A stretch of 64,000 nt of DNA, from NCBI RefSeq assembly GCF_900129685.1, contig NZ_FQWM01000001.1, forward strand, positions 434,001-498,000, written 5' to 3'. This DNA comes from Cognatishimia maritima (lineage in GTDB: Bacteria; Pseudomonadota; Alphaproteobacteria; Rhodobacterales; Rhodobacteraceae). How positions within the stretch are numbered: the first letter of the stretch is position 1; every line of letters begins with the position of its first letter. The notes beneath the pieces are model-generated. The model saw nothing but the letters and a program-made list of their open reading frames with translations. It searched no databases and was not told where the DNA came from. Below, piece by piece: positions 43,387 to 62,927 of the stretch. Position numbers and translations under genes: made by a program.

Positions 43387-43450
43387 GTACAACTTGGACT
43401 CAAAGTTGAAAATAACTACACAGCCACAACCATATCCTCCACATTAACCC

Positions 43451-44635: not shown

Positions 44636-45439
44636 TCAGCCTTCTAGTCGCTGGTCCATACTGACCGCAGGCTGCGAACACCCGGCGTCGCCGACAATTC
44701 GGGCCGGTACGCCGGCCACCGTTTTGCAGGGCGGCACCTCTTCTAGCACCACAGAGCCAGCCGCGACTCGAGAGCAATTGCCAACCTTGATATTGCCCAA
44801 CACCTTGGCCCCGGCCCCAATCAAGACGCCATCCCCAATCTTGGGATGACGATCCTCTTCTTCTTTGCCGGTCCCGCCCAAAGTGACGGAATGTAGCATC
44901 GAGACATTGTCCCCGACCACGGCGGTTTCGCCGATAACGATGGAATGGGCATGGTCGATCATGATCCCCTGCCCAATGCGGGCATTGGGGTGAATGTCGA
45001 TACCAAACACCTCTGAACAGCGCATCTGAAAGAAATACGCCATATCCTTGCGGCCCTGGTTCCACAGCCAATGCGCCACGCGATAGGCCTGGATGGCCTG
45101 GAAGCCTTTGAAAAACAGCATGGGCTGGATCAGCCGATGGCAGGCCGGGTCACGTTCGAAAACCGCCGTCAGGTCGGCACGCGCCGCCATAGCCAACTGC
45201 GGGTCGGCGGCATAGGCCTCATCCGCGATCTCCCGCAGGATCTGTTCAGACATCTCGGCAGAGGCCAGCTTCAGCGAAGTGCGATAGCTAAGCGCGTGTC
45301 TGATCGACCTGTGGTGCAGAATCGACGAATGGATTAGCCCGCCCAATAGCGGCTCTGACTTTACGGCCTCCTCGCCCTCGCGCAGGATACGCTCCCAGAC
45401 GGGGTCAAGTTCTTTGATGATGGGGTTGCGTTCAGCCAT
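44636..45439 (-). CDS. cysE: Serine O-acetyltransferase
   Basis: It acetylates serine with acetyl-CoA, the first step of cysteine synthesis, and is usually feedback-inhibited by cysteine. The 267-residue protein has the helical N-terminal domain (about 1-140, with DPVWERILREGEEAVKSEPLL). The left-handed beta-helix of hexapeptide repeats follows (GIDIHPNARIGQGIMIDHAH and VIGETAVVGDNVSMLHSVTLGG), with the catalytic histidines. The C-terminal tail is typical in length. It is followed by cysK. Confidence 0.96.
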   Translation of the reverse strand: MAERNPIIKELDPVWERILREGEEAVKSEPLLGGLIHSSILHHRSIRHALSYRTSLKLASAEMSEQILREIADEAYAADPQLAMAARADLTAVFERDPACHRLIQPMLFFKGFQAIQAYRVAHWLWNQGRKDMAYFFQMRCSEVFGIDIHPNARIGQGIMIDHAHSIVIGETAVVGDNVSMLHSVTLGGTGKEEEDRHPKIGDGVLIGAGAKVLGNIKVGNCSRVAAGSVVLEEVPPCKTVAGVPARIVGDAGCSQPAVSMDQRLEG

Positions 45440-45514: not shown

Positions 45515-45919
45515 TCATGCCTCGGAATGCAATGCAAACCTGCGTTCGGACGCTAAAGATGGTGTGAAGTTCTTGTGACTTTTGGCATTCTTGACGCTGT
45601 TTGTTGCGCGGTTTCCAGCGTGGTCCTGTTTGGCTGCACGCCATTTTGTCATTTCTGCAAGTGCGATTTGCAGGCAGTGGCAATAGTTTGGCGACTGCAA
45701 ATCTGGAAAAACGACAGGCCGCCGCGCCTCGCATCCAATGCGCGCCAAAAGGCTGCCATCGCCCCAACAGCGATGTCGCCTCAGATACCGTTTGCGGTAT
45801 TTGTCTGCGCATTCCGCTTCACTAAAAAGGCGCTGACAGGCATTTGCCCGGCGCGCTGGCGGAAGCTCTGCCAAATAGGCCGCCAGTGCAAACAAATCCC
45901 CCGCCATGACCCGCCGCAT
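45515..45919 (-). CDS. GTA-linked small protein (DUF7742-like)
   Basis: A 134-residue protein whose first 90 residues resemble the short protein often found after the host-specificity gene in Rhodobacterales GTA clusters. Landmarks are RVMAGDLFALAAYLAELPPARR, SEAECADKYRKRYLRRHRCWGDGSLLARI and SPNYCHCLQIAL. The start overlaps the gp15 stop by one base (TGATG), so it is translated with the cluster. The last 40 residues, rich in Lys, Asn and Ser, look like an unrelated extension that could come from loss of an earlier stop. Its role is unknown. Confidence 0.72.
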   Translation of the reverse strand: MRRVMAGDLFALAAYLAELPPARRANACQRLFSEAECADKYRKRYLRRHRCWGDGSLLARIGCEARRPVVFPDLQSPNYCHCLQIALAEMTKWRAAKQDHAGNRATNSVKNAKSHKNFTPSLASERRFALHSEA

Positions 45920-48900
45920 CAGCCCAGATTGACCTGCGTGACCGCCTCGGGCCCTGCCCCATAGCTGGTCGACAATTGCTCAACGCGCACTTCAACCACC
46001 CCGGCCATACCCACCGACAACTGCGTCTCCGCCTCCAACTGTACGTTGGAACTGCTCGTGAGGATTTCATAGACTATGTCCCCCGCCTGCCAGATCGTCA
46101 GCCGATAGTCTTCGCTTTCCTCACCCAAGGGCACCTCGGCAACCTCCCAATTGTCGCCCCCGACGCGGGTCTGGCGAATCCATCGGATGTCCAATGTGCC
46201 CGCCGCGTCTACCGTCGCCCGCAGATGCACCGGCGCATAGGGCCGCAGACCGTTGCCTCGGAAGGCATGCGTTGCCTCGGCGTAAAGCGGATCACTGACA
46301 GGCCGCGAGGCAGGCCCAACGCAGTAGCTGCGCGACAGACCAATTTCCGACGATGCCATGTCCAGCTGTTCGGCAGCCCCTGTCCAGGCCACAAGCCACG
46401 ACCCAGCAGGCCAGCCCCCTGCCCCCGCCACGCCGCTGCCGCGTTGCCCGCGCAACAGGGTCGAAAGGGTGTATTCATCCGTACCGGTCAGTTCCGCGCC
46501 TGCAAACTGCACGACTTCCCAGTTGTCGGGTGTACCATCGCCAATCACAGCAACATTCGCGCCTTCCAGCACTGCCGCAGCGGCGCGGCTTTGCAGGTGG
46601 CCCCGGATCATCTGAACCGGCACCTCTGTACAGCGGTCCCAAACGCCCAGCGCACCTGCCGGGAGAGCCTCTTGTAAGATGCCCACCACAGGTGGCTGTG
46701 TCAGCAGCACGTACAAGGAATAATCATGGTCCGTCAGCGCCCGATAGACCGCCGCTGCGCCGGGCCAAGGGTCCGCCACTGCCATGACATGCGGCGCATG
46801 TGGCACCTCATCGCCAGTCAGCAATGGCAAGTCCATAAAGAGCGGCGTTAAAGGCGACAGTGCTGCGAACCCTGCCAAGCCTCCCTCGTCCAAATCAAGG
46901 TCCCGCGTCTCATAACTCTCTTCTGACACGCGCACCGCTTCACACCTCAGGGCCTCCGCCCGTTCAATGCGATCAATCCGGTAGTCCTCGCCCGCGCCAG
47001 TATCAGACGGCAAAGTCACCACATCCCCAACCTGCACATCCATCTGTGACAGCGGCAAAGCAAACTGGGCCCGGTCCTGCGCCAGTCGCGCCTCAGAAAG
47101 CCACCTTTCAGCGACCTCCCGGGCCTCGCCGCGCTGCAGGCTCAGCGCCATTTCGGTGCGCGAGACAACGTCGCTTTCGTCATCCGCAAAATGCGCATCT
47201 TCCAGCAGGCTGTCATAGTCGCCATAGGCCGTCACAGCGGCGACCTGCACCCTACCAATGGTCTCGGCATCTGATTGCCGAGTTCTGATCAACGGCCCGT
47301 CTAGGTCCGGCAAGACCGCCAGTTGTTCTTCGACCAACGCGCGCTTGGATGGTGCGCCACGCATCAGAAAATGCAGCATGCCATCCCGCTCCACCGCGTC
47401 AAACCCATAGCGCAACATCAAAGGCTGCAGGCTCTGCCTCGCGGTGGACACCTCATCCACCACATAGCCGCGCACAACGCCTTCTAGGCCCGAAACGTCG
47501 ATGCGCGTCAGTCCCGATGCTTCGCAAATTTCCCTCACAACAGACGCTAGGGACCGGTGTGTGGACCGACCAGATATCCAATGCCCGCGCCGGAAATTCG
47601 CGCCATCGCTCCAGAGGTCGGTATTGCGTGGAAACCATGGGAAAGGCCGTGTGTCATAGGCCCAGACAAAGGCACGGGACATATCAACCATCGGTCCCTC
47701 ATAAACCTCCGAGGTCGGGTTGTTCGCCCCATCAGACCAGAACCGATACTGCGCCCTGAGGTATTGCATCTGAATGTATTCATCAGGTTGCCCATCCGAG
47801 AAATATGGCAACTGGCTTTCAGACGACTTGGGGTCGAGAAACTTGTTGGGTTGATTGGTGCCCTTATCAACAGCCGCACAGCCGAGTTCCGTGAACCAGA
47901 TCGGCTTGGATTGCGGCACCCAAGCGGTTGGCGTTTCTTGCCGCACGCCACCGATCCGATCATGGTGCGCCTGAGACCACCAATTGCGAATGTCCTTGTA
48001 GCGATAGATCCACGCTTCGCCGTAAGCCCAATCCGTGATGGCCGCACGCTTCTGCGTGTTGCGCGCATTCTCAGTTGGGTAAAACCAATCATACCCTTCT
48101 CCGCCGGCAATATTGTCCATTAGGTAGTCCAGATCGTAGATCGACCCATAAGGGGCATCCAAGTGATCGTGCCCATCCCGCCAATCCGAAAGCGGCATGT
48201 AGTTGTCGATACCGACAAAATCCAACTCCTCCTGCGCCCAGAGCGGATCAAGGTGAAACAGTCGGTCATCACTGCCAACTTCGGGCTGATAACCAAAATA
48301 CTCACTCCAATCCGCCGCATAACTGAGTTTGACATCTGGCCCCAAAATCGCGCGCACCTCTGACAAGAGGTCAATCAGTTCAGCAACCGCAGGAAAGTCC
48401 CCCTGATCATCCCGCACCCAGGTCAGCCCCCGCATTTCAGAGCCGATGCAAAAGGCATCAACCCCTCCTGCGGCCTGACACAGCGCCGCCTGATGCAAGA
48501 TAAACCGGCGATAGCGCCACTCATCGGGGCCAGAGTAACTCACTGCGCCGTCTGCTACCGTGAAGTCCGATGCCGACGCCGTGCCAAAAAACGCCGCAAC
48601 TTCGTCCGCGGCTGCCTGCATGCCATCCACGCCAGCCAACCCCGGAGCCACCGAACAAGTAATACGTCCCCGCCACGGAAACGCGGGCTGGTCCTCTGCG
48701 CCAGTCCAAGGATCAGGCAGGCCATTCCCCTCCATCTGATCCATCAGAATGAAAGGATAATACAACACCGCCTTCCCCGTCGCCTTCAGATGCGCAATTG
48801 CGTCAATCACTGAAGCATCCGCAGGCGTGCCGCCATAGACAGGTCGCCCCTCCACCTGCGGCACCGCCTGCGCCGATGAACGCGGAACCCCCGCGACAAC

Positions 48901-49839
48901 CCAAGGGACCGAGCCATCAAAATCCGTCTCTTCAATCTTGGGTCTGATCTCACACGCATCGCAGCGCAGATCATTGCCAAACCAACTCACCACCAAAGAC
49001 GTCGCCCTGCAGGCGGGCAGGTCATTGTCCAGAACTTCAATGGCGGTTTTGAAATCCGCCTCCCCCGAAGGTGAATTCACATTTGCAGGCCACGACTTCC
49101 CAGGGCCGTTCTCGTAATAGACAGGTGTGCTGGACAAGGCGTATTCCCCAGACCCAGGGATCAAAGCCACTGCCTCCGTCCGCCTGACCAGATCAAACGC
49201 CGCGTCCTCTTGTGTGGCCGGAGCCGGTCGGCTGACTTCAAATGAGAACTGCGGCACCCGATTGCCAAAGGGCGTCAGGTCCAGGTCTTCAAACACCACA
49301 TAAGCTGTCCCGCGATAGGCAGGCACTGCGCCCACACCCTCAACCGCTTCGATCTTCGGGTCTGGCAGTTGCGTCTCTCTGCCCGGATAAACCCGCATCG
49401 TCACATCAGCCATGGAAATCTCGCGCCCATCAGCCCAGAGCCGCGTCACGCCAGTGATCTCCCCCTCACAAAGCCCTAAGGCGAGCGACACCGAATAGCT
49501 GTAAGTGGTCTCCTTGGGCTGCGGAGGTCGGCCTTTACCGCCGCCTGTCGTCGTGACGGTTTCCTTAAATCGCGTCGCCCAAATGACATGCCCGGCAATG
49601 CGCATCCGCCCATAGACCTGCGGGATCGCGCGCCCTTCTGCGGCCCCTGACAGGCGATAACGATCGATTCGCCCGGTTTCGATGGCCCGTCCGCCACCGC
49701 CCAGAATGCGTTGATCAATTGCGTTGCCGATCACACCCCCAGCAAAACGTCCAATCGCCACCGACGACAGCCCCAAGACCGATCCGCCCACGGCTCCGCC
49801 AATCGCCGCACCTGCGGCGGATAACACCATCGTTGTCAT
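45919..49839 (-). CDS. GTA host-specificity / baseplate hub protein (g15)
   Basis: The largest GTA protein, 1306 residues, at the tail tip. It begins with a Gly/Ala-rich stretch (about 1-40) like a glycine zipper. A phage-tail domain follows, then a TIM-barrel, glycoside-hydrolase-like domain (about 430-750, with DFVGIDNYMPLSDWRDGHDHLDAP and FTELGCAAVDKGTNQPNKF), a phage tail 3-type domain, and a C-terminal beta-rich region. The gene is full length for the RcGTA family and ends the canonical cluster. The start has GGAGCAG upstream and is 12 bp after the NlpC/P60 gene. Confidence 0.95.
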   Translation of the reverse strand: MTTMVLSAAGAAIGGAVGGSVLGLSSVAIGRFAGGVIGNAIDQRILGGGGRAIETGRIDRYRLSGAAEGRAIPQVYGRMRIAGHVIWATRFKETVTTTGGGKGRPPQPKETTYSYSVSLALGLCEGEITGVTRLWADGREISMADVTMRVYPGRETQLPDPKIEAVEGVGAVPAYRGTAYVVFEDLDLTPFGNRVPQFSFEVSRPAPATQEDAAFDLVRRTEAVALIPGSGEYALSSTPVYYENGPGKSWPANVNSPSGEADFKTAIEVLDNDLPACRATSLVVSWFGNDLRCDACEIRPKIEETDFDGSVPWVVAGVPRSSAQAVPQVEGRPVYGGTPADASVIDAIAHLKATGKAVLYYPFILMDQMEGNGLPDPWTGAEDQPAFPWRGRITCSVAPGLAGVDGMQAAADEVAAFFGTASASDFTVADGAVSYSGPDEWRYRRFILHQAALCQAAGGVDAFCIGSEMRGLTWVRDDQGDFPAVAELIDLLSEVRAILGPDVKLSYAADWSEYFGYQPEVGSDDRLFHLDPLWAQEELDFVGIDNYMPLSDWRDGHDHLDAPYGSIYDLDYLMDNIAGGEGYDWFYPTENARNTQKRAAITDWAYGEAWIYRYKDIRNWWSQAHHDRIGGVRQETPTAWVPQSKPIWFTELGCAAVDKGTNQPNKFLDPKSSESQLPYFSDGQPDEYIQMQYLRAQYRFWSDGANNPTSEVYEGPMVDMSRAFVWAYDTRPFPWFPRNTDLWSDGANFRRGHWISGRSTHRSLASVVREICEASGLTRIDVSGLEGVVRGYVVDEVSTARQSLQPLMLRYGFDAVERDGMLHFLMRGAPSKRALVEEQLAVLPDLDGPLIRTRQSDAETIGRVQVAAVTAYGDYDSLLEDAHFADDESDVVSRTEMALSLQRGEAREVAERWLSEARLAQDRAQFALPLSQMDVQVGDVVTLPSDTGAGEDYRIDRIERAEALRCEAVRVSEESYETRDLDLDEGGLAGFAALSPLTPLFMDLPLLTGDEVPHAPHVMAVADPWPGAAAVYRALTDHDYSLYVLLTQPPVVGILQEALPAGALGVWDRCTEVPVQMIRGHLQSRAAAAVLEGANVAVIGDGTPDNWEVVQFAGAELTGTDEYTLSTLLRGQRGSGVAGAGGWPAGSWLVAWTGAAEQLDMASSEIGLSRSYCVGPASRPVSDPLYAEATHAFRGNGLRPYAPVHLRATVDAAGTLDIRWIRQTRVGGDNWEVAEVPLGEESEDYRLTIWQAGDIVYEILTSSSNVQLEAETQLSVGMAGVVEVRVEQLSTSYGAGPEAVTQVNLG

Positions 49840-49851
49840 AAGAGCTGCTCC

Positions 49852-50316
49852 TTACTGAGGATCTTCTGAGGGCGCTTGGGCTGTCATGGGTTCAGGAAAG
49901 GCAAAACGCGCCACTATTCGCCGCGCCCAAGGGGCCGACAAAGGGCTTTCCACCACCGTATGCCCCGCAAAAGCGTGAATGAATCGAGGTTGACCCCCAA
50001 CCAAGGATTGAACACCCAGATGTTTGGCAACCGCCCGGTCACACATTCGAAACAACAGAACATCACCCGGCGCTGCCGCTGCGAGATCCTTTGGCACCAA
50101 ATGACGGAGCGCCGCCCGCCAAAGCACCTCGTCCTGCGCCGTCTCAGACCAATCTGCCGAATAGGCCGGGGCCACCTCTGGCTCTGCGCCCAACACGCCG
50201 CGCCAGACACCTCGTATCAACCCCAGGCAATCGGTCCCGGCCCCCAACCGAGACGCCTGATGCACATAAGGCGTCCCAATCCATCGGCGCGCCTCGTCAA
50301 CAATATCCTGCCTCAT
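49852..50316 (-). CDS. GTA NlpC/P60 peptidase (g14)
   Basis: A 154-residue cell-wall peptidase at the tail tip. The catalytic Cys lies in GAGTDCLGLIRGVWRG (about residue 30) and the His in RFIHAFAGHTVVESPL (about 115-125), as in the NlpC/P60 fold. It should open the recipient's peptidoglycan during DNA delivery. The start overlaps the g13 stop by four bases (ATGA). Confidence 0.94.
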   Translation of the reverse strand: MRQDIVDEARRWIGTPYVHQASRLGAGTDCLGLIRGVWRGVLGAEPEVAPAYSADWSETAQDEVLWRAALRHLVPKDLAAAAPGDVLLFRMCDRAVAKHLGVQSLVGGQPRFIHAFAGHTVVESPLSAPWARRIVARFAFPEPMTAQAPSEDPQ

Positions 50317-51182
50317 CGCAGGCTCCCGCCGTCATTCACGCCATCCCTGCGCGGCAGAGTTGTGATCCAGTCGTCATTGGGAATGTCAGGAAAGCCCCGG
50401 AAATTCAGCGCATCGTTAAACTTAAACCGGCTGGTCGCAAACGACCGGTCATGCCCCGCGATCAACCGCACGGGCTGCCCAACGTCCAGAGACTGTGGCA
50501 GCGGCTCCCAAAGTGTGATCTGCCGTCCGCCCGCAATCACCTCATCCGATTTGATCACGACATTCAGTGACAGATCATCAATGATGAACAGGCCATGCGT
50601 GAACCATCCCGTGTCACAGCCCTCTGCGCCAATCACTTCAAAAGTATGCGGATCGAGCTGATCCACCACCTCGACCTCTGCCGAATAGGCCGGTGCCGTC
50701 AGATCAACCTCTAATGCGGCAACACCCATCGGGCAGCTTTTCTGAAACACCCGCCCGCGCGGCTGGTTCAGCACCTCGCTCAATCCGCGCACTTCGGCCT
50801 GAAAGGCCTGCCCGACACGCGTGATCTCTCCGATCTGACCGGCAAAGATCACCGTGCGCTGCGTCGGCGCCGCCCAATTGACCAGCCAGCACTGCACGTC
50901 GGCCCCATCATAGCGCCCGGCGGCGATGTCTTCTTCGGTGATGGCATCCGCACTCAAGGCCCCGAGTGTCTCGGTATTATCAACCGCCAGCCCCGTCGCC
51001 TGATCCAGCGCCATGGCCGTCAGCCCGCTGTCCGCGCGAAAATCGACACCGTCAAATGACAGCGCGCAGTCATGGTCAGTAAACCCAAGCACCACACCAT
51101 CCCTGCGCGTGACCTGCCAGCACCGCGCCAATGTGGTCAGTCCGCTCTCAAGATGCGCTTTGAGCTCTGCTGAAATCCCCAT
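50313..51182 (-). CDS. GTA DUF2163 / BR0599-family tail protein (g13)
   Basis: A 289-residue baseplate-associated protein of the DUF2163 family: WQVTRRDGVVLGFTDHDCALSFDGVDF near 21-47, FQAEVRGLSEVLNQPRGRVFQKSCP near 135-160, and HDRSFATSRFKFNDALNFRGFP near the end. It has the usual length and gene position between the distal tail protein and the peptidase. Its start shares one base with the g12 stop. Confidence 0.93.
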   Translation of the reverse strand: MGISAELKAHLESGLTTLARCWQVTRRDGVVLGFTDHDCALSFDGVDFRADSGLTAMALDQATGLAVDNTETLGALSADAITEEDIAAGRYDGADVQCWLVNWAAPTQRTVIFAGQIGEITRVGQAFQAEVRGLSEVLNQPRGRVFQKSCPMGVAALEVDLTAPAYSAEVEVVDQLDPHTFEVIGAEGCDTGWFTHGLFIIDDLSLNVVIKSDEVIAGGRQITLWEPLPQSLDVGQPVRLIAGHDRSFATSRFKFNDALNFRGFPDIPNDDWITTLPRRDGVNDGGSLR

Positions 51183-51814
51183 CAGACACGCACCTCCACC
51201 ACGGGCACATTGGGCATGTCGCCCGCCTGAAAACTCGCCACGCTGGTCTGAATGCGATCCGTGTCAAAGCGCACCGGCACGTCAAATTCAAACCCAGCGG
51301 TCACTGGCTCTCCCGGCGCGGGGGCCTGCACCAAAGTGATCTCACCCCGCGCTGTATCCAACGTAAAATCAACGGCTTCCAGCTGTTCAGTATCCGCCAC
51401 ACCAACCCGGACAGTGCCTGCGACGGGCTTGCAAATCGGGCGCTGATACCGCGCCTCTCCGCTTTGATAGGTCTTGTGAAGCTGGAACACGTGGGTTTGC
51501 CCATCCCCCTCACCAATCACCTGATCGCGAAAATCAATTTCGGCACTCGGGAGGGCGGATTTGAAATCCGACCAATCCTTCCAACGAAACCCGTAAAGCT
51601 GACCGCGCCGCGCTTCGAAGAAGGCAATCAGCGTCTCGATATCATCCAAAGACCGCACGCCAACGCCTGCATCATAGCGACGGCGCGCATGCGCCCAGGG
51701 CGTATTGCGTTCCTCAAACCCATTGGTCAGCGTCACGATATCCGTCCGCCGCTCTGGCCCACCGATCGAGCCGAAACTCAGGTTGGTCGGAAATCTTACC
51801 TCGTGAAAACTCAT
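51182..51814 (-). CDS. GTA distal tail protein, DUF2460 (g12)
   Basis: A 210-residue protein of the DUF2460 family, with VRFPTNLSFGSIGGPERRTDIV near 6-27 and FFEARRGQLYGFRWKDWSDFKSALP near 67-91, both hallmarks of this baseplate hub component. Length and gene order match RcGTA g12. GAGTGTCG lies before the ATG. Confidence 0.93.
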   Translation of the reverse strand: MSFHEVRFPTNLSFGSIGGPERRTDIVTLTNGFEERNTPWAHARRRYDAGVGVRSLDDIETLIAFFEARRGQLYGFRWKDWSDFKSALPSAEIDFRDQVIGEGDGQTHVFQLHKTYQSGEARYQRPICKPVAGTVRVGVADTEQLEAVDFTLDTARGEITLVQAPAPGEPVTAGFEFDVPVRFDTDRIQTSVASFQAGDMPNVPVVEVRV

Positions 51815-51824
51815 GCGACACTCC

Positions 51825-52484
51825 TCACATATTCCGCTGCCCGCGCGCGATGGCGCGGGTCATTTGTGTGGCGATCTGGCCCTGAGAGCGGCGAAATCCT
51901 TCGACATCCGAGGTCTGGATATTCATCACAACCTGTACAGGGCGGCCACCACCACCGCGCACGCCCAATTTGCCATCCGCCCCGCGTGCCAAGGGCATGA
52001 TCGCCTCTGGCCCCGCTTCACCCATCACACCAAGCCCGCCGCGCATCGTGAAAGCTGTGGCCTGACTGACAATGCCTCCGTTTGCAAAGGGCATGACCCG
52101 CCCCTGCGTAAAAGCCGCCCCATCGGCAAAGGGCATCAGCCCCCCGACCAGACCGCCAATACCGCGCGCAATCAGCGCGCCAAAGTGATCCGTCACCGGC
52201 GTTACCGCCGCCTCATAGGCGCTGTCCATCACGCTTTTGAAAACATTGCGCAGCGCATCACCAAGGCTATCGCCGTCTTGCACCAACCCATCGACGGCCT
52301 TCTTCAGCCCTTTGGACATACCCTTTTCAAAGGTCTCAAAATCGCCGCCCGCGCTTTGCAAACTGCGCCGCACCCGGTGCAATTCTGTGTCAAACGCCGC
52401 CAGCATCTCTCCGGTCGCGGCAGCACTGTCACCAATGTCACCAAGGTGATCCCGAAACGCGTCCATGCCCTCATAATCCGTCAT
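51825..52484 (-). CDS. GTA tail tape measure protein (g11)
   Basis: A 219-residue tape-measure protein. A helical N-terminal part (about 1-100, with DYEGMDAFRDHLGDIGDSAAATGEML) is followed by GALIARGIGGLVGGLMPFADGAAF and GVMGEAGPEAIMPLARGADG, the typical phage tail tape C-terminus. The short length reflects the short GTA tail. It overlaps the g10.1 gene by 14 bp. Confidence 0.93.
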   Translation of the reverse strand: MTDYEGMDAFRDHLGDIGDSAAATGEMLAAFDTELHRVRRSLQSAGGDFETFEKGMSKGLKKAVDGLVQDGDSLGDALRNVFKSVMDSAYEAAVTPVTDHFGALIARGIGGLVGGLMPFADGAAFTQGRVMPFANGGIVSQATAFTMRGGLGVMGEAGPEAIMPLARGADGKLGVRGGGGRPVQVVMNIQTSDVEGFRRSQGQIATQMTRAIARGQRNM

Positions 52485-52677
52485 GTTCCTGTCCTCTCTG
52501 ATCTGGATAGGCCGTCAAAAGCGCCTCCAATTGCGGGCGGCTCATCGGGGTCACGCCTTGAGGCTGACCAAGCATCACCGCAAGTTCGGCAGGCGTCAGC
52601 GCCCAGAATGCCTTTGGGTCCAGGCGCAAGTCATGCAGCCCCGCACGCATAAGGCTGCGCCAGTCAAAGCCCGTCAT
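52471..52677 (-). CDS. GTA tail assembly chaperone (g10.1)
   Basis: A 68-residue protein with GLHDLRLDPKAFWALTPAEL, the pattern of the small tail-assembly chaperone family that follows the g10 gene in RcGTA clusters. The start, MTGFDWRSLM, overlaps the end of g10 by 14 bp and its stop overlaps g11. A longer frame upstream is antisense to nothing useful and lacks similarity. Confidence 0.88.
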   Translation of the reverse strand: MTGFDWRSLMRAGLHDLRLDPKAFWALTPAELAVMLGQPQGVTPMSRPQLEALLTAYPDQRGQEHDGL

Positions 52678-52996
52678 CGCCCTCTCCCGGCACCACAAAA
52701 GCCACCGCCAGCAATTGCGCCGCCACCCGCGCCGCCTGCAAAGGGCCACCGGCAATATCGGCCTTGGCCAGATCGCCTTCTGACCCGTCCCAATCACAGG
52801 CCGTTAGCCCTGCATGCAGCAATGCAATCACATCCCCTGCACCAAACGCCCCGCTTTCAAAGCGCTCAACCAACGCCATCAAGGATCCACTCGCCAAACG
52901 CGCTTCCAAAGCTGCCAAGGCTCCAAGCGTCAGCTTGGCCACGCAGCGCTTTCCGTTGACCGTCAGCGCTACTTCTCCCGCATAGGGATTGGCCAT
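52664..52996 (-). CDS. GTA family protein gp10
   Basis: A 110-residue protein with NPYAGEVALTVNGKRCVAKLTLGALAALEARLASGS, the N-terminal signature of GTA gp10. It is likely a tail tube chaperone or connector; its exact function is not proven. Three bases separate it from the major tail protein gene. Confidence 0.92.
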   Translation of the reverse strand: MANPYAGEVALTVNGKRCVAKLTLGALAALEARLASGSLMALVERFESGAFGAGDVIALLHAGLTACDWDGSEGDLAKADIAGGPLQAARVAAQLLAVAFVVPGEGDDGL

Positions 52997-52999
52997 GGC

Positions 53000-53413
53000 T
53001 TAAGCCGCCACAAAGGTCAGTGCGCCAGCCGACGCCAAAGCCAATTCATAGGTCGCCTCGCCATTATGCGTGCCCGCATAATCCAGCGCCGTGACCTGAA
53101 ACGGGCCCTCAACCGTGCCAAAATCAGGGATAATTACCTGAAACGCCGGGACTTCGCCGTCAAAAAACAACTGCCGTGCCCGCTCATCCGTATCGGCATC
53201 TTTAAAGATGCCCGACCCGGAAATGGACGCCGACTTTACGCCCGCCCCACCCAAAAGTTCTCGCCAACCACCCTGGCTTTCCAAAGACGTCACATCGACG
53301 CTTTCGGCATTAAAACTGATCCGCGTCGCGCGCAGCCCTGCCAGCGTGACAAAACTGCCGTCCCCCAGAATATCCACCTTGATCAATAGATCCTTACCGT
53401 TCTGTGCCGCCAT
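53000..53413 (-). CDS. GTA major tail protein, TP901-1 type (g9)
   Basis: A 137-residue tail-tube subunit. KDLLIKVDILGDGSFVTLAGLRATRISFNAESVDVTS near 6-42 and GSGIFKDADTDERARQLFFDGE near 65-86 are the TP901-1 major tail protein hallmarks. The length is normal for RcGTA g9. It is expected to assemble into hexameric rings of the short tail. Confidence 0.94.
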   Translation of the reverse strand: MAAQNGKDLLIKVDILGDGSFVTLAGLRATRISFNAESVDVTSLESQGGWRELLGGAGVKSASISGSGIFKDADTDERARQLFFDGEVPAFQVIIPDFGTVEGPFQVTALDYAGTHNGEATYELALASAGALTFVAA

Positions 53414-53440
53414 CTGCCCGGCCCCCTTCGTTTGATGAAA

Positions 53441-53851
53441 TCAATTGTCCTGAACCCGCGCCGCAAACCGCAGGTCGATCCGCCGCAAATTCGCGGCTTC
53501 TTCCCGGCTTGCCACCGCGCGTTCAAACCGCATCGCCACAAGATGACCGCGCGCCAAAGCCAGATCGGCCTCGGTCAAAGCGTCACTTACAGCCACCGCG
53601 ACCGCCTTCGCCCCGGCAAAACCGCTGACGTCAGACACCACAGAGACCTCAATGCGATGCAAAGCCCCGCTGCCGTCGCCATCGGACCGATCCAGCACCA
53701 CTTCTGGCCCCAAGGTCACATAAGTCGACGGGATCGTGCCATTGGGCACCTCGTCGTAAATTGCGCTGCCAATCAGCCCTGCCAGCGCGCTGTCCGCCAG
53801 CAAATGCTGATAGACCGCCGCCTGCAACGCCACTGAAACCCCGTAGCTCAT
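53441..53851 (-). CDS. GTA tail terminator-like protein, DUF3168 (g8)
   Basis: A 136-residue DUF3168 protein, a tail completion / terminator family. It has SVALQAAVYQHLLADSALAGLIGSAIYDEVP near 6-36 and LVAMRFERAVASREEAANLRRIDLRFAARV near the C-terminus. The start overlaps the stop of the g7 gene by four bases (ATGA). Confidence 0.92.
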   Translation of the reverse strand: MSYGVSVALQAAVYQHLLADSALAGLIGSAIYDEVPNGTIPSTYVTLGPEVVLDRSDGDGSGALHRIEVSVVSDVSGFAGAKAVAVAVSDALTEADLALARGHLVAMRFERAVASREEAANLRRIDLRFAARVQDN

Positions 53852-54186
53852 GCTGCCACCTCTTCACGTGCAAGACAGGTCAGATAGCGCCCCGAGATAT
53901 CGGGTTCGGTCACCGCCATAATCCGGTAAATCCGCGACCCTTCGCGAAACCGTTGCCCCGCATTTGGCCGCTGCGATGACCCGACAGGCGCCGCCCGTAC
54001 TGTGACCTTCACATCCAACCGAGACACGCCCACATCTTCGCGATCCCGCTCACCCCCAGACCGAGGTTTCACCTCCGCCCAAACATGGCCAAGCGCGACC
54101 CAGCTTTCCACAAAGCCCCCCGCGCCATCCGAATTGCGGGTGACGCTTTCCAGCAGCATCCGACGGTTGAGTTGCGGCTGTCTCAT
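53848..54186 (-). CDS. GTA head closure / head-tail adaptor (g7)
   Basis: A 112-residue protein of the phage head-tail joining family: NRRMLLESVTRNSDGAGGFVESWVALGHVWAEVKPRSGGERD and RFREGSRIYRIMAVTEPDISGRYLTC. It lies in the usual position between the head-tail connector and the DUF3168 protein, overlapping both neighbours by four bases. Confidence 0.92.
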   Translation of the reverse strand: MRQPQLNRRMLLESVTRNSDGAGGFVESWVALGHVWAEVKPRSGGERDREDVGVSRLDVKVTVRAAPVGSSQRPNAGQRFREGSRIYRIMAVTEPDISGRYLTCLAREEVAA

Positions 54187-54782
54187 TGCGCGCCCTCCAA
54201 CCCGATCCGTACCGGGCGGTACCGCGCAATCAGACTGGTAACGCCAAAGGGCATACAGCCCCCCGCCAATGCCGTTTCATTGCGGTATTCGTAAAAGTGC
54301 GCCGCCAGCAGCAGTACCGCCTGCTGCAAATCCGCAGGCACGCCCGACCAGGTCGCGGCAAAGCCGACAGACGCCACAATCTCGATCTGCCCACCGCCCA
54401 CCGGCGATGGCAAACTGGCCCCGGTGCTGCGCAGTCTTGGCGCATGCGCGTCCATCTCAAGCACATAGGCAGAGGCCGCAACTTCGGTGATCTCCTGCTC
54501 TGCATCCAGAAGACGCACCGCATCCACGGCACTGACCGGAGCCAAGGGAAAAACCTGGACCGACCCATCGCGCCAATCGGGCAAACGCCACGTCACAATG
54601 CGCGACAGCAACAGTTTGCCACAGCGCGCTTCAACCGCCGCCAATGCCGCCCGCAGAAAGCCTTCCAGAACGCTGTCCTGCAACGTGTCCTCAGCAAACC
54701 CGGTGCCAAGCCGCAACTGCGCGCGGAACTCTGCCATGGGCAAGACCGATAGCGGCAGCTCTGTTTCATCCATCAGATACAT
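54183..54782 (-). CDS. GTA head-tail connector (g6)
   Basis: A 199-residue connector of the phiE125 gp8 type. SVLPMAEFRAQLRLGTGFAEDTL near 12-34, FLRAALAAVEARCGKLLLSRIVTWRLPDWR, and PADLQQAVLLLAAHFYEYRNET near 155-176 are clear. ATG 54782 has GGAGG six bases upstream; an ATG two codons earlier directly abuts it and is less likely. Confidence 0.9.
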   Translation of the reverse strand: MYLMDETELPLSVLPMAEFRAQLRLGTGFAEDTLQDSVLEGFLRAALAAVEARCGKLLLSRIVTWRLPDWRDGSVQVFPLAPVSAVDAVRLLDAEQEITEVAASAYVLEMDAHAPRLRSTGASLPSPVGGGQIEIVASVGFAATWSGVPADLQQAVLLLAAHFYEYRNETALAGGCMPFGVTSLIARYRPVRIGLEGAQ

Positions 54783-54801
54783 GGACATCCTCCAAACCTC
54801 T

Positions 54802-54866
54802 TGCTCCCCTCACTCTCCCCATCCAGTTAGGGCGCGCACCACGCGTCACTCGGTGGGAGGGGAGCA
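54802..54866. repeat. Inverted repeat between the capsid and connector genes
   Basis: TGCTCCCCTC (54802-54811) and GAGGGGAGCA (54857-54866) are perfect complements, spaced by 45 nt, in the 155-bp gap after the capsid gene, the longest gap inside the GTA cluster. It may attenuate or process the transcript after the most abundant product. Confidence 0.65.
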
Positions 54867-54937
54867 GCCAGAAACGCGTCTCCGGCGCACGCCCCGGCAA
54901 GGCGACCCAACGCCGCCTTGCCCGTCGCGATGCACCC

Positions 54938-56122
54938 TTAGGACACCGCGAACCGCAGCAGCTTGATCGCCGCAAAGTCGCTCACATCACCGCCCACGCG
55001 TTTCGTCGCGTAAAACAGCACATGCGGCTTGGCAGAGAATGGATCACGCAGCACACGCAGATCAGGGCGTTCCGCAATCGTGTAACCGGCTGAAAAGTCA
55101 CCAAAAGCAATGGCGTCAGCCCCGCTTGCAATGTCGGGCATGTCCTCGGCAATCAGCACCGGATAGCCCAGCAGCCGCGCTGGTTCGCCCGCCGCCAGAC
55201 CGTCAGACCACAGGAAGCGTCCGTCCGCGTCCTTCAGCTTGCGCACCGCGCCCGCTGTCTTCGAATTCATCACAAAGGTGCCATTCGCCCGGTATTGCGC
55301 GCCCAAGGCATAGACCAGATCAATCAGCGCATCGCCGCCGTTGAACCCGGCATCCACGCCGGTGGCGATATACCCCAGATTGCCCCAAGCCCAGCTGGCA
55401 TCATCCACGATGTTGTGGGTCAAAATACCCGTCGGCTTATCCACACCATCCCCGGTGATAAAAGCCGCCGCCTCAGCCCGCGCAAATTTGTCCGCGATCC
55501 GGCCCGCAAGCCAGCCTTCGATGTCAAAGGCACTGTCATCCAGCAGGCGCTGCGACGCTTTGGGCAGCGCCGAAAGTTCGTGCAATGGAATAGAAATGCG
55601 CTCAATCGTCGGCGTTCCGGTTTCAGCCGACGCCGATGTCTCGTCCGCCCAGCCCGCGCCGACATCCGTGCTGTCCATCAGGACGTCATAAGAGGTCGCC
55701 TCGACCTGCACGACATTGGCAATCGCCCGGATCGACGCAGTTGACGCCAACACAGAATTGACCGTTTCAGAGGTCACCGGATCAACCAGATAGCCACCAT
55801 CTCCGTTCACCACGGTGGACAGCGCCTTGCCTTCCAACTCCAGCCCACGCAGCCCGTCATCATCGCCCGTGCGCAGATAGGCCGTCATCGCCTTTTGGTG
55901 CGGCGCGTCATAATCCGTGCGCTCCAAAACCGGGCGCGCGGCCATCATTGTTTTCTGATCCAACTTGTTCATTCGCTCGTCCTGCTGTTGCAATTTCTGT
56001 TCAACACTGGCCCGAAAGCCCTTGAATTCAGACGTAAATCCCGCCACCGCGGCCTTTACCCCCTCTACCGGAGACACATCTTCTCCATTCCGGGCCATCA
56101 GCCCGGTTCCCGATTTGGTCAT
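54938..56122 (-). CDS. GTA major capsid protein, HK97 fold (g5)
   Basis: A 394-residue capsid subunit. An N-terminal helical coiled part (about 20-75, scaffold-like, removed by the prohead protease in the RcGTA system) precedes the mature HK97-type core: GGYLVDPVTSETVNSVLASTASIRAIANVVQVEATSYDV and TGDGVDKPTGILTHN. The start has AAAGGG six bases before ATG. It is followed by the longest intergenic gap of the cluster. Confidence 0.96.
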   Translation of the reverse strand: MTKSGTGLMARNGEDVSPVEGVKAAVAGFTSEFKGFRASVEQKLQQQDERMNKLDQKTMMAARPVLERTDYDAPHQKAMTAYLRTGDDDGLRGLELEGKALSTVVNGDGGYLVDPVTSETVNSVLASTASIRAIANVVQVEATSYDVLMDSTDVGAGWADETSASAETGTPTIERISIPLHELSALPKASQRLLDDSAFDIEGWLAGRIADKFARAEAAAFITGDGVDKPTGILTHNIVDDASWAWGNLGYIATGVDAGFNGGDALIDLVYALGAQYRANGTFVMNSKTAGAVRKLKDADGRFLWSDGLAAGEPARLLGYPVLIAEDMPDIASGADAIAFGDFSAGYTIAERPDLRVLRDPFSAKPHVLFYATKRVGGDVSDFAAIKLLRFAVS

Positions 56123-56150
56123 CCTCAACCCTTTCGAAATTTAGTCGCGC

Positions 56151-56693
56151 TTAACCCTGCGCCATCTGCTGCCGGGCATCGTCAAAAATACCCGCCAAAA
56201 CCCGCATCATGTCAGCTTCAGGACTGTCTCCTTTCGCTGCCACACGAGCCGTTGGAAGCATTGGAAAGGTCACCAAAGACACCTCCCAAAGGTCCAATTC
56301 ATTCAAAAGCCTCTGGCCCTTGTCGTCTTTGGCTGCCCGCACGGTGCGATAGCCAATCGACAGCCCATCAATGGCCCCTGCGGCGATCAACGCTGCCGCC
56401 TCGCGCCCCTTTGCCACGCTGTCCAGCAAGCGCCCTTTGACATAAAGCCCCCGCGCGTCCTCGCGCACCTCGTCCCAAATACCAATCGGCTGGCTTGGAT
56501 CATGCTGCCACAGCATCTTCACCGACCGTCCCGCCGCCTTCAGCGCAATCAATGACGCCGCATAGGCCCCGGCCTGCACCACGTCCCCGCCTTGATCGGT
56601 CGCCCCAAACAGCGACGCATAGCCTTCAATCACGTTGCCAGCGTCAACCGTCAGACCCGCACCAAACCGCGCAAATTTTCGTTCCAATTCCAT
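56151..56693 (-). CDS. GTA prohead protease, HK97 family (g4)
   Basis: A 180-residue serine protease that trims the capsid protein. VIEGYASLFGATDQGGDVVQAGAY near 22-45, VKMLWQHDPSQPIGIWDEV (the catalytic His is in WQHD) and GAIDGLSIGYRTV (the catalytic Ser is in GLSIG) are the family signatures. ATG 56693 has AAAGGG upstream; an ATG two codons earlier abuts the ribosome site. Confidence 0.93.
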   Translation of the reverse strand: MELERKFARFGAGLTVDAGNVIEGYASLFGATDQGGDVVQAGAYAASLIALKAAGRSVKMLWQHDPSQPIGIWDEVREDARGLYVKGRLLDSVAKGREAAALIAAGAIDGLSIGYRTVRAAKDDKGQRLLNELDLWEVSLVTFPMLPTARVAAKGDSPEADMMRVLAGIFDDARQQMAQG

Positions 56694-56704
56694 ATCCATC
56701 CCTT

Positions 56705-56935
56705 TCACGGCCCCACCTGCATCAGCGACTGAAACGCCTGCGCCAGGATCACGCCCACAACGCCATAGACTGTCAGCCAAAGCCGTTTCTCTAACCGTTC
56801 AATCATTGTCTCAATGCGATCGAGCCGCTTGTTCAAGCTGTCAAATTGCAGCTTCGCCACCCGCTCATGCGCTTCCAACCGCAGCGCTGGCGCGCAATCA
56901 AAGGCCTCAAAGCCATAGCGTTCCCCATCAGCCAT
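56705..56935 (-). CDS. GTA small membrane-type protein (g3.5)
   Basis: A 76-residue protein between the portal and protease genes, the position of RcGTA g3.5. It has a coiled-coil-like middle (LQFDSLNKRLDRIETMIERLEKRLW, about 30-54) and a hydrophobic C-terminal helix (LTVYGVVGVILAQAFQSLM). GGAGG six bases before ATG 56935 fixes the start. Its function is unknown. Confidence 0.82.
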   Translation of the reverse strand: MADGERYGFEAFDCAPALRLEAHERVAKLQFDSLNKRLDRIETMIERLEKRLWLTVYGVVGVILAQAFQSLMQVGP

Positions 56936-58103
56936 CCGCACCCTCCATCATCGGCGGCAAGCCAAGCAGCTTCCGCTTTTCAGCCACCGTCAGGAAATCC
57001 GCCGCCTGAACGCGCTGCCACTGGCTTTCGCGTTCCGCACTCAGCGCAGGCACCTGATCCAGATCAGGCCGCAACTGCACAGCATCGCCAGAGAATCCGG
57101 TAAGCCAATCGCTCAATCGTCCGGCCACGCGACTTATTAGCGGCAAGACCGTCAGACGGAAAAACGCACGGTGCGCTTCTTGGTAATTGGCATAGGTCGG
57201 ATCGCCCGGAATGCCCAACAACATGGGCGGCACCCCAAAGGCCAAAGCAATCTCACGCGCGGCGGCTTCCTTGGTCTGCTGGAATTCCATATCCGAGGGC
57301 GAAAACCCCATGGGCTTCCAGTCCAACCCGCCTTCCAGCAACATTGGCCGCCTCGCATTGCGCGCGCCCTGATGATGGCTCTCCATCTCGGACACCAATC
57401 GCTCATACTGCTCAGGTGCCAAGCTGCCCTGCCCATCGGCGGACTTGTAGACAATGGCTCCCGATGGCCGCGCCGCATTGTCCAGCAACGCCTTTGACCA
57501 ACGCGACGCGCTATTATGCACATCAATCGCCATGGCCGCGGCCTGCATCGGCGACAGCCCATAATGATCATCCTGCGGATGGAAATTGCGCAGATGACAA
57601 ATCTGCGACTGGCCAGAAACCTCAAACCGATGTTTGCGCCCGCCGACCGCATACTCATAGGCAGCCGGCCAACCATCCGCGCCGGGCACAACCCGCATCC
57701 GGTCCGACCGCAAAACATGCAACTCCACCGGCAGACCAGCCTCGCCGACCGCTTCGACATATCCATCGCCCGACAGCATCAACTGCGCCACCAAAGCCTC
57801 AAGGAACTCTGCCCGCCCCTGTGCCAAATTCGGGTGGGCTAACAGAGACAACACCGGATGCACATCGTAGCGTTTGGTCTGATCCTCCAACACCAAGGGC
57901 ACCGCCGCCGCAGCCTCGGCGATCAGTTTGACGCAGCGAAAGCCCACCGGGTTCCCGGCATAGCCCGTCTTGGTCAAGGACACCGTATCGCGCGGCGACC
58001 AGGCAACCCGGCCCGAGGACTGATAAGCCACCACAGGCGCAACCGCGCTGGCCTTCTGCTCAGGCACCTTCGCCGCATCTCGCCTTAGAAACTCAAACAC
58101 CAT
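56928..58103 (-). CDS. GTA portal protein (g3)
   Basis: A 391-residue phage portal protein of the HK97 type. GYAGNPVGFRCVKLIAEAAAAVP near 46-68, GQSQICHLRNFHPQDDHYGLSPMQAA near 163-188, and ALAFGVPPMLLGIPGDPTYANYQEAHRAFF near 284-313 are typical. The start ATG 58103 follows GAGGG; earlier ATGs at 58124 or 58148 are possible. Eight bases overlap the g3.5 gene. Confidence 0.94.
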   Translation of the reverse strand: MVFEFLRRDAAKVPEQKASAVAPVVAYQSSGRVAWSPRDTVSLTKTGYAGNPVGFRCVKLIAEAAAAVPLVLEDQTKRYDVHPVLSLLAHPNLAQGRAEFLEALVAQLMLSGDGYVEAVGEAGLPVELHVLRSDRMRVVPGADGWPAAYEYAVGGRKHRFEVSGQSQICHLRNFHPQDDHYGLSPMQAAAMAIDVHNSASRWSKALLDNAARPSGAIVYKSADGQGSLAPEQYERLVSEMESHHQGARNARRPMLLEGGLDWKPMGFSPSDMEFQQTKEAAAREIALAFGVPPMLLGIPGDPTYANYQEAHRAFFRLTVLPLISRVAGRLSDWLTGFSGDAVQLRPDLDQVPALSAERESQWQRVQAADFLTVAEKRKLLGLPPMMEGADG

Positions 58104-58204
58104 CCGGCTTGCCCTCACTTGCATCTCTGTCGCTTCGTTGAAAATCAATCTGCCAGAAACCTGTTAAATCTCTGACACTTGTCCGACCGCTGCCTATGCA
58201 ACAG

Positions 58205-59575
58205 CTACAAGGGTCGCACCTTCGGCTGGGTCCATTTCTGCGCGGGCACCAGCATCAGATCGGTCAAAGCCCATACCAAGGCATCCACCCGGTCCGGCGA
58301 TCCGTCCCCCTCAAACCCCTGCGCCCCCATAAGACACATCTGATCCTCTAAATCGCCAAGTCCGCGCAGATGTTGGATGCGCCCTTGCTCATATAAGGCC
58401 GCCACAGGTTCTGCCCGAGCGACCTTGCCACGCGACGCCCGGACCGCCCGATAGGACATCAACGGGTCCACCTGCCGCAAAACGCTCTCCACTAGATCGC
58501 CCCCCTGGTTGACCTCCGCCACCAGCCGATCTGCCCCCCAACGATGCGCCGCCGCACAGGCCGCTTCTGCCCAGCCCTGCGGCGACAGCCCCGCAACCGA
58601 GGCATCCTCCAAGACAAAAGCACGCCAGTCCTGCGGTGGCCCCGCCATAGTCGCGCCAACCACAACAATCCCACAGGCATCCGACTGCGTCGTCCCGGTC
58701 ACCGGCGGGTCCACTGCCACCACCACCCTGTCCAGATCCGGCGCGGTCTCAACCTCCGCCCGATCCATCATCGCGCGCGTCCACAAAGCGCCCTCAATAT
58801 CGGCCATCAACAGGCCCTCAAGCTCCTGCCGCCCAAGCCGCGTCCCGGCATAGCGCCGTTCGACTTCTTCAAGGAAACTCTGCGCCAGATTGGCCCGGTT
58901 GGCCTCTGTCGGCGCATGGCTCTGCACCGTGCCTGCATCCGCCAGCAACTGCCGCAACACCGGCACATTGCGCGGCGTGGTCGTCACCACCTGCTGTGGA
59001 TGATCCCCCAACCGCAAGCCAAATTGCAGCATGTCCCACGTGGCCTCCGCGTTCTTCCACTTGGCCAATTCATCCACCCAGGCGGCATCAAACTGCGGCC
59101 CCCGCAAACGATCCGGGTCATGCGCCGAATAGGCCTGCGCCGCGGCTCCATTCGGCCACACCAGCCGCCGCCGTGTCTCCTGCCAAATGGGCCTGCGATC
59201 CGGCGGCGAACAGGCCAATATCCCGCTCTCGCCATGCACCATGACCTCGCGCACTTGCTCCAGTGTTTCACCCACCAGCGCCACCCGTGTCGCTTTCCCC
59301 GCGTCCAGCGGCATCGGCCCTTCCACCATGTTGCGCACCCATTCCGCCCCGGCCCGTGTTTTCCCAGCCCCGCGCCCGCCCAGAATGACCCAGGTCTTCC
59401 AGTCGCCTTCCGGCGGCAGCTGATGATCCATCGCCCAAAACTCAAACAAATAAGGGAGAGCCAGCAGCTCTCCCTCTTCCAATTCATCGAGAAATCTCTC
59501 CTGCACCGCAGCATCGGCGGAGGCGATCCAGGCGGCACCGGATCGTAGATCGGGCCCTAGCAAGGTTGACGGCAT
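58205..59575 (-). CDS. GTA large terminase (g2)
   Basis: The packaging motor of 456 residues. The Walker A region VILGGRGAGKTRAGAEWVRN (about 62-81) and the DEAD-box-like Walker B context FDAAWVDELAKWKN (about 162-175) mark the ATPase. A C-terminal nuclease part includes VVVAVDPPVTGTTQSDACGIVVVG with acidic metal-binding residues. It overlaps the small terminase gene by about 92 bp with the ATG at 59575; a TTG at 59617 would make that overlap longer. Confidence 0.95.
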   Translation of the reverse strand: MPSTLLGPDLRSGAAWIASADAAVQERFLDELEEGELLALPYLFEFWAMDHQLPPEGDWKTWVILGGRGAGKTRAGAEWVRNMVEGPMPLDAGKATRVALVGETLEQVREVMVHGESGILACSPPDRRPIWQETRRRLVWPNGAAAQAYSAHDPDRLRGPQFDAAWVDELAKWKNAEATWDMLQFGLRLGDHPQQVVTTTPRNVPVLRQLLADAGTVQSHAPTEANRANLAQSFLEEVERRYAGTRLGRQELEGLLMADIEGALWTRAMMDRAEVETAPDLDRVVVAVDPPVTGTTQSDACGIVVVGATMAGPPQDWRAFVLEDASVAGLSPQGWAEAACAAAHRWGADRLVAEVNQGGDLVESVLRQVDPLMSYRAVRASRGKVARAEPVAALYEQGRIQHLRGLGDLEDQMCLMGAQGFEGDGSPDRVDALVWALTDLMLVPAQKWTQPKVRPL

Positions 59576-59825
59576 GATCCGTCGCGATGCCTTCTTGCTG
59601 TTTTCGTCGTTCTTCAAATCGAACCTCCATATCGATCGCCAAGCGGCTCCAGGTGCGAATATCGGCCAGCAATTTGCTCGCCTCCCGCACAGCGGCGTCC
59701 TCCCCTGCGGCGACCTCTTTCTCGACCGCGCGCAAAGACCGCGTCAGATGCGCCAGGGTCTGGCGCACCGCATCAAACTCCTCTTCCAAAGAGGAGCCAT
59801 TTTCCGGCGTATTGTTTTTCTGCAT
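59484..59825 (-). CDS. GTA small terminase (g1)
   Basis: A 113-residue coiled-coil protein, the size and position of RcGTA g1, which selects DNA for the large terminase. EEEFDAVRQTLAHLTRSLRAVEKEVAAGED and REASKLLADIRTWSRLAIDMEVRFEERRKQQEG show the helical heptad pattern. The start at 59825 has GAGGCG seven bases before. A frame to 59921 covers the leader and is rejected. Its 3' part overlaps the large terminase gene in another frame. Confidence 0.9.
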   Translation of the reverse strand: MQKNNTPENGSSLEEEFDAVRQTLAHLTRSLRAVEKEVAAGEDAAVREASKLLADIRTWSRLAIDMEVRFEERRKQQEGIATDHAVNLARARSTIRCRLDRLRRCCGAGEISR

Positions 59826-59927
59826 TTGTGTTCGCCTCTCATGTAAAGTTGCCCCTCCACACGAGCGAAACGAAAACGACCCCAGGTAATCACCTAGGGC
59901 CGCGCCCATTCCTTCCAGCATGACAAA

Positions 59928-59956
59928 ACTGTAGCAAAGACCGTCACGTTTGTCAA
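59928..59956 (-). promoter_or_regulatory. Promoter of the GTA cluster
   Basis: On the minus strand TTGACA (59951-59956) and TACAGT (59928-59933) are separated by exactly 17 bp in an AT-rich patch, with a predicted transcript start near 59921 and about 95 nt of leader before the first gene. Confidence 0.72.
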
Positions 59957-59967
59957 TATTTTGTTTA

Positions 59968-59982
59968 TTTACAGATACTTAA
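59968..59982. promoter_or_regulatory. Candidate CtrA site upstream of the GTA promoter
   Basis: TTTA-CAGATAC-TTAA matches the CtrA consensus TTAA-N7-TTAA at seven of eight positions, 12 bp upstream of the -35 element. CtrA control of GTA is known in Rhodobacterales; whether it binds here is inference. Confidence 0.4.
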
Positions 59983-60096
59983 CGATGCGCTCAACTAAAA
60001 CGCAACGCCACTGATCCACCACTAACCCAATCGTGATTGGCTGTTGATCGGCTTTCAAGGAATGCTCATCCCGACCGTTTCAGAAAGGCCCACCTC

Positions 60097-61455: not shown

Positions 61456-61541
61456 CGTAAAGCTCCTGCTCTAGGCGAACTTCAGCATCGTGCGTGTCTG
61501 TTACTTGCTTGGCACAGACACTCCGGCCCATCTTCACCGAG

Positions 61542-62726: not shown

Positions 62727-62927
62727 CATCCTCTCCCATTGCATTTCATTTGCGTCGCCGAAAAAGCGTCGGGTATTTAGATCTCGAAGGGTGCCAGAAT
62801 TCTGTGCTTTTGTCTTTGTTTTTAAGGAATCAGCGGTTCCAGAGCACCAACTTACTTTGCAAACCAACAACCGTTGCCAGCTGCAAAGCTAGTAAAAAAG
62901 TATTCAACCAAGGTCAAAGGTCAGACC

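Follow-up and report, generated by a model that had tools for sequence, protein, structure and literature searches.

The 64,000-nucleotide stretch of Cognatishimia maritima DNA analyzed here (the window, G000:C3:434001-498000) very probably carries a complete head-tail structural operon of a gene transfer agent (GTA) of the type known from Rhodobacter capsulatus (RcGTA), inherited with the chromosome beside cysE and kept by selection. The source genome G000 comprises 3.28 Mb in 14 contigs with a completeness of 99.4%. GTA clusters of this kind are well known and the present one is an ordinary member. The point of potential interest is the comparison within the genus, in which complete clusters, different deletions and single-gene breaks occur together with unlinked activator and lysis genes that are open.

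A frame map combined with family scans placed 18 open genes on the minus strand from position 59825 down to 45515. The genes were named from Pfam and NCBIfam profile matches, a PDB sequence search and homologues in the GTA loci of relatives. Genes g1 to g15, including g3.5 and g10.1, represent all 17 core genes in RcGTA order on a single strand with one open frame each, as a preliminary description of this DNA had stated, and no frameshift was seen within the cluster in the assembly. The range of 45515-60036 given there holds these 17 genes, but it also contains an uncounted eighteenth, g16 (DUF7742; 45515-45919), and its last part, 59826-60036, is the region upstream of g1. Downstream of g16 follows cysE. 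The statement that neighbouring genes mostly overlap by one to fourteen bases was about half right. Overlaps occur at eight of the 16 junctions from g1 to g15; seven of them measure 1-14 bases and that of g1/g2 about 134 bases counted from the TTG start of g2 at 59617, whereas the other eight junctions are gaps of 3 to 149 bases. A TTG is present at the aligned place of the g2 start in 41 of 77 relatives. The starts of seven genes were compared with the codons at aligned places in relatives, which gave good support for g3 and g10.1, fair support for g1, g2, g3.5 and g4 and weak support for g5; for the remaining genes the first ATG was taken. The whole genome contains one PF05065 capsid gene, and a search for a second one found none. 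The terminase model PF03354 gave no match because the window terminase belongs to PF03237/PF17289. An Rfam scan of the window was without match.

The assignment to GTAs is carried by GTA-specific models that matched above their curated cut-offs, namely NF058675 (short tape measure), NF048004 and PF13547 (TIM-barrel megatron) and NF048001 (rcc01685 head protein). Further GTA family models (TIGR02216-02219) were matched as well, and the best PDB matches of capsid, portal, tail tube, hub and megatron are RcGTA particle proteins. A capsid scan of genomes yielded 313 confirmed relatives, the best 80 of which were kept, some of them with short loci. By their titles, these best 80 belong to the Rhodobacteraceae or related genera, a few being titled only Alphaproteobacteria. 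For the individual genes g1-g15, between 65 and all 80 of these loci gave a match, with alignments over most of each gene. The nearest relative is Cognatishimia activa, whose capsid is 89% and whose portal is 87% identical. Its terminase is 83% identical over 46% of the protein, where the contig ends, and its megatron 70% identical over 80% of the protein, the megatron being split there.

A defective prophage or a phage head-tail module might contain a similar set of genes, and phage homologues of capsid, terminase and megatron do exist over most of their length (597, 234 and 149 records of the phage collection, respectively). However, not one of these matches reaches at least 60% identity, compared with the 89%, 83% and 70% (the last two partial) found in C. 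activa, and best matches to phages over GTA clusters were not seen. The Rhodobacter phage RcKai illustrates this distance. This 41.6 kb phage record contains an RcGTA-like megatron homologue over 97% of the length, but with 42.8% identity it is far more distant than the megatrons of GTA clusters (up to 70%). No integrase was found among the six neighbouring genes scanned, no direct repeat of at least 18 bases with copies on both flanks was detected between 43400 and 62900, and the window contains no tRNA. Moreover, the same genes lie beside cysE, whole or partial, in seven of eight congeners. Given the low phage identities and the lack of an integrase among the scanned neighbours and of repeats on both flanks, the prophage reading was rejected; together with the GTA-specific models and the conserved site, these data make it highly improbable and agree with the earlier view of a GTA structural cluster.

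The nine genomes of the genus are referred to as G000 to G008. In the fetched region of seven of the eight other genomes, cysE adjoins g16, which together with the lack of an integrase among the six scanned neighbours, of att-like repeats on both flanks and of tRNA points to vertical inheritance of the operon at a conserved chromosomal site. Selection was estimated as dN/dS from codon alignments with a Nei-Gojobori count. For all GTA genes pooled, the ratio was 0.135 against G003, 0.124 against G006 and 0.196 against G005, and the values of single genes of g1-g15 lay between 0.02 and 0.31 across these comparisons; all are rough, as dS amounts to about 1.3 in the pooled data and several genes approach saturation. 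Gene g16 appeared looser (0.19 to 0.58), and cysE gave 0.05-0.06. Low ratios of this kind show constraint across the divergence of the species and are no proof of present-day function. The near-saturation weighs against an intact operon kept by selection, and further points lie on the same side. The identity of g1 rests on its place and on homology to other g1 genes, since it gave no Pfam or NCBIfam match and no credible PDB match. For g11, the PDB search returned a weak lambda-type tape-measure match only and no RcGTA chain. The remaining points concern the break, the assignment and the possible replacement of the tail-fibre gene outside the cluster, which are treated below.

The region upstream of g1 contains a predicted promoter core, TTGAC-N7-ACGGTC, which has one exact match in the window with 0.04 expected. 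When upstream regions of the congeners are aligned, a sigma-70-like TTGAC common to them stands some 130 bases ahead of g1. The pattern, derived first from the window and its congeners, was scored in the regions upstream of the cluster in the window and in 76 relatives, 77 regions in all. All 11 fixed bases were present in 21 regions and 10 of 11 in another 17, giving 38 of 77 regions with at least 10, a score reached by 0.26% of shuffles. In 45 of the 49 regions scoring at least 9, the element sits 290-400 bases before g2; the remaining 28 regions reach 7 or 8, a level that shuffled sequences attain equally well. The core is also kept before three congener clusters carrying deletions (L135, L141 and L142). 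GafA binding in R. capsulatus has been reported 76-125 bases before g1 (PMC6363796, in the part available), and the conserved spacer of the core may represent a GafA contact.

Activator and lysis genes, which had been expected elsewhere in the genome, were indeed found outside the cluster and are open. A single DUF6456 gene (8.0e-50) encodes a GafA of 358 amino acids, in which helix-turn-helix matches remained below cut-offs. The lysis cassette consists of adjacent genes for a GH108 endolysin (203 amino acids) and a GTA_holin_3TM protein (168 amino acids) and is located on the same contig, about 18 kb before the start of the window. For gafA promoters, a CtrA-type site TTAAC-N6-GTAAC is described in the available text of PMC6363796. 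A pattern search found this site exact upstream of gafA in six of the nine genomes of the genus, and G008 was recognized as a seventh by eye in the alignment. The G000 site deviates by one mismatch in the first half-site, and in G004 no such site was seen in the alignment. Upstream alignments of the gafA, endolysin and fibre promoters gave no defensible common element as a candidate for a shared operator.

By homology, the RcGTA mechanism can be carried over to this cluster. As in R. capsulatus, GafA, under CtrA, would activate both operon and lysis cassette in a few cells. Small heads and tails would assemble, and the terminase would package host DNA into the heads in pieces of about 4 kb. 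Lysis would then free the particles, which would inject their DNA into relatives. The doubtful step is receptor binding.

Rcc00171, the tail fibre of RcGTA, is described as having DUF2793 as its N-terminal domain (excerpts of PMC8265664 and PMC10883770), and the fibres are reported to be indispensable for gene transfer by RcGTA (PMC7296036, likewise an excerpt). The only DUF2793 gene of the genome (L083:671-1728; G000:C6 ~130141-131198, minus strand) is frameshifted as assembled. It falls into two frames, one matching profile positions 1-75 and the other 69-352, so that between them no part of the family profile is missing. Aligned with the DNA of five congeners, G000 lacks one position at the break, which lies at a run of five G. 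As the downstream frame is still open over 286 codons and conserved (dN 0.22 against G006), the break either arose very recently or reflects an assembly error. Of 80 genomes searched, 43 carry DUF2793, and the domain is split only in G000 and in a single frame in 42 of 42 others; since the break lies inside DUF2793, this comparison is fair for the domain and not for the rest of the gene. The seven other fibre genes of the genus each keep a single frame from end to end, and G003 is without a DUF2793 gene. A programmed frameshift was also considered and is unlikely, given the seven single-frame congener copies and the fact that no classical slippery heptamer was recognized by eye.

The break speaks against full function, an objection that falls away if it is an assembly error. 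Some of the 43 DUF2793 copies lie beside a megatron TIM domain in prophage-like loci, and the G000 copy is a putative GTA fibre by its family and by being the sole copy. Six of 42 genomes with a megatron TIM domain lack any DUF2793, among them G003. Because G003 has a complete cluster without this gene, another protein may replace the DUF2793 fibre in some lineages.

These findings bear on the activity of the system. From gene completeness, the preliminary description had suggested that the GTA can be active. In that form the suggestion is not supported. The genes of a GTA are spread over several loci, and in the assembly the fibre gene carries a frameshift, so that completeness does not imply activity and a working particle cannot be assumed from a complete cluster. 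In close relatives, moreover, the system has been lost at more than one place. If the frameshift is real, particles would be made and released with poor or no DNA transfer, unless another fibre substitutes. A fully functional GTA, with the frameshift as a sequencing or assembly error, is plausible though short of probable. The position of the break at a G run, the open and conserved downstream frame, the joint coverage of the family profile by the two parts and the presence of gafA and lysis genes speak for it. In contrast, inspection of the window's frame map by eye, with no homology test, showed no other split gene in the 64 kb, so that the assembly looks sound.

The state of the cluster differs across the genus. 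Complete clusters with each of g1-g15 open are found in G000, G002, G003, G004 and G005; the only stop inside their g1-g15 alignments is that of G004 g14, at the gene's own end. In G006 (C. activa CECT 5113), the megatron (L140:1799-5693) consists of two frames meeting near residue 1035, and the contig breaks off within g2, so that g1 and the beginning of g2 are not on it. In G001, g1-g3 are kept and a deletion leads from g3.5 straight to the end of g15. In G007, the sequence between the start of g2 and g12 is gone and g13-g15 are damaged further, and G008 has kept of g1-g15 only g15 from about residue 190 on. In all three, g16 and cysE are retained. G001 and G007 are close sisters (bootstrap 100). 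None of the three deletions is derived from another, because each genome keeps a stretch that is lost in the other two. In all nine genomes gafA is open, as are holin and endolysin; G001, G006, G007 and G008 keep these genes together with an open fibre gene, which in G006 contains a run of unknown bases. The genus seems to be losing GTA function piecemeal.

On this background, the GTA of G000 might be in early decay, its cluster being intact only because the loss, here via the fibre, is recent. We hold this reading tentatively, as quite possible. It is favoured by the single-frame DUF2793 domains of the 42 other genomes and the whole genes of the seven congeners that have one, by the different deletions and the split g15 among the nine genomes, and by the open activator, lysis and fibre genes of the four damaged systems. 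On the other hand, dN/dS is low for the GTA genes in the window, the frameshift is known from the assembly alone, and G003 with its complete cluster suggests that the fibre is perhaps dispensable or replaced.

A more far-reaching interpretation, which we regard as unlikely but worth stating, is that the genus is abandoning gene transfer by different routes. Sister genomes would have lost different parts of the cluster by deletion but retained promoter, activator, lysis and fibre genes, and G000, with a complete, selected particle operon and a broken fibre, might lyse and release particles that deliver nothing. If this were true, particle production and lysis would be separable from gene transfer as a selected trait, and the genus would be a natural experiment on why GTAs are kept. 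According to the available part of PMC9836097, the GTA cluster is present in almost all examined Rhodobacterales, and lineages whose GTA systems are pseudogenized or lost have been interpreted as possible cheaters (PMC10883770, in part). Cognatishimia would be a compact place for testing the cheater-lineage idea. A search of open PMC text for Cognatishimia paired with 'gene transfer agent' found no entry.

Compared with RcGTA (R. capsulatus rcc01682-rcc01699, rcc00171, gafA and the rcc00555 lysis locus), the system is alike in gene set, order and sizes, the megatron having 1306 amino acids here and 1304 in RcGTA. It also shares g16 and cysE downstream (PMC9552610, as far as available) and separate gafA and lysis loci. 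The best matches are proteins of the solved RcGTA particle. It differs in the frameshifted tail-fibre gene and in the upstream neighbourhood, since YceG lies directly before g1 in R. capsulatus, whereas DUF3179 and aminotransferase genes intervene here. Other GTA clusters of Cognatishimia and Shimia (e.g. C. activa CECT 5113; L001) represent the same operon at the same site. C. activa differs by its g15, split in two frames, and three other genomes of the genus by the absence of large parts. Co-transcription of g16 (rcc01699) with the GTA cluster is reported for R. capsulatus in the accessible portion of PMC9552610; g16 is the least conserved cluster gene, matched in 23 of 80 relatives only. 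The coordinates of all features are compiled in the table.

Table. Predicted features of the GTA operon and its surroundings (window positions; relatives are those kept from the capsid scan).
Feature	Position	Strand	Product or description	Support
promoter core	59939..59956	-	predicted promoter core TTGAC-N7-ACGGTC	begins 131 bases before g1 start
g1	59484..59825	-	small terminase, 113 aa	place and homologues in 65/80 GTA loci; 70% identical to G003 g1
g2	58205..59617	-	large terminase, 470 aa from TTG 59617	PF03237 1.7e-28; PF17289 1.6e-19; start codon here in 44/77 relatives
g3	56928..58103	-	portal; frame open to 58148, start 58103 preferred	PF04860 8.5e-90; RcGTA portal Rcc01684 3.7e-183; start codon here in 59/80 relatives
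g3.5	56705..56935	-	GTA head formation protein, RCAP_rcc01685 family	NF048001 3.4e-36; start codon in 42/72 relatives
g4	56151..56693	-	prohead protease; frame open to 56780, start 56693 preferred	PF04586 2.1e-29; start codon in 49/80 relatives
g5	54938..56122	-	major capsid protein, start uncertain	PF05065 1.6e-88; RcGTA Rcc01687 5.5e-178; start codon at 56122 in 27/80 relatives only
g6	54183..54788	-	head-tail connector	TIGR02215 2e-47
g7	53848..54186	-	head closure	PF05521 6.7e-24
g8	53441..53851	-	tail terminator	PF11367 1.6e-27
g9	53000..53413	-	tail tube	PF06199 1.9e-50; RcGTA Rcc01691 7.7e-74
g10	52664..52996	-		PF11836 GTA-gp10 1.9e-23
g10.1	52471..52677	-	rcc01693 family, start 52677 preferred	TIGR02216 2.3e-21; start codon in 62/77 relatives
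g11	51825..52484	-	RcGTA-type tape measure, 219 aa	NF058675 1.8e-93
g12	51182..51814	-	distal tail protein, Rcc01695 family	TIGR02217 8e-84
g13	50313..51182	-	baseplate hub	TIGR02218 7.2e-73; RcGTA hub 9.7e-79 (PDB)
g14	49852..50316	-	NlpC/P60 cell-wall peptidase	TIGR02219 6.1e-51
g15	45919..49839	-	megatron / host-specificity protein, 1306 aa	NF048004 1783 bits (cut-off 800); RcGTA megatron 1465 bits (PDB)
g16	45515..45919	-	DUF7742, probably last gene of operon	PF24891 6.1e-23, 81 bits; placed as rcc01699
cysE	44636..45439	-	conserved downstream neighbour	TIGR01172 3.1e-69; 63/80 relatives' loci

The DUF3179 and aminotransferase genes between g1 and YceG lie in the part of the window from 60037 to 63926. 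DUF3179 is also present upstream in G003 and was matched in none of the 80 loci of the relatives. On the other side of the operon, a frame of 351 codons at window positions 42337-43392 has a low G+C content (third position 0.51) and no Pfam match, and adjoins a PALP-family (PF00291) gene.

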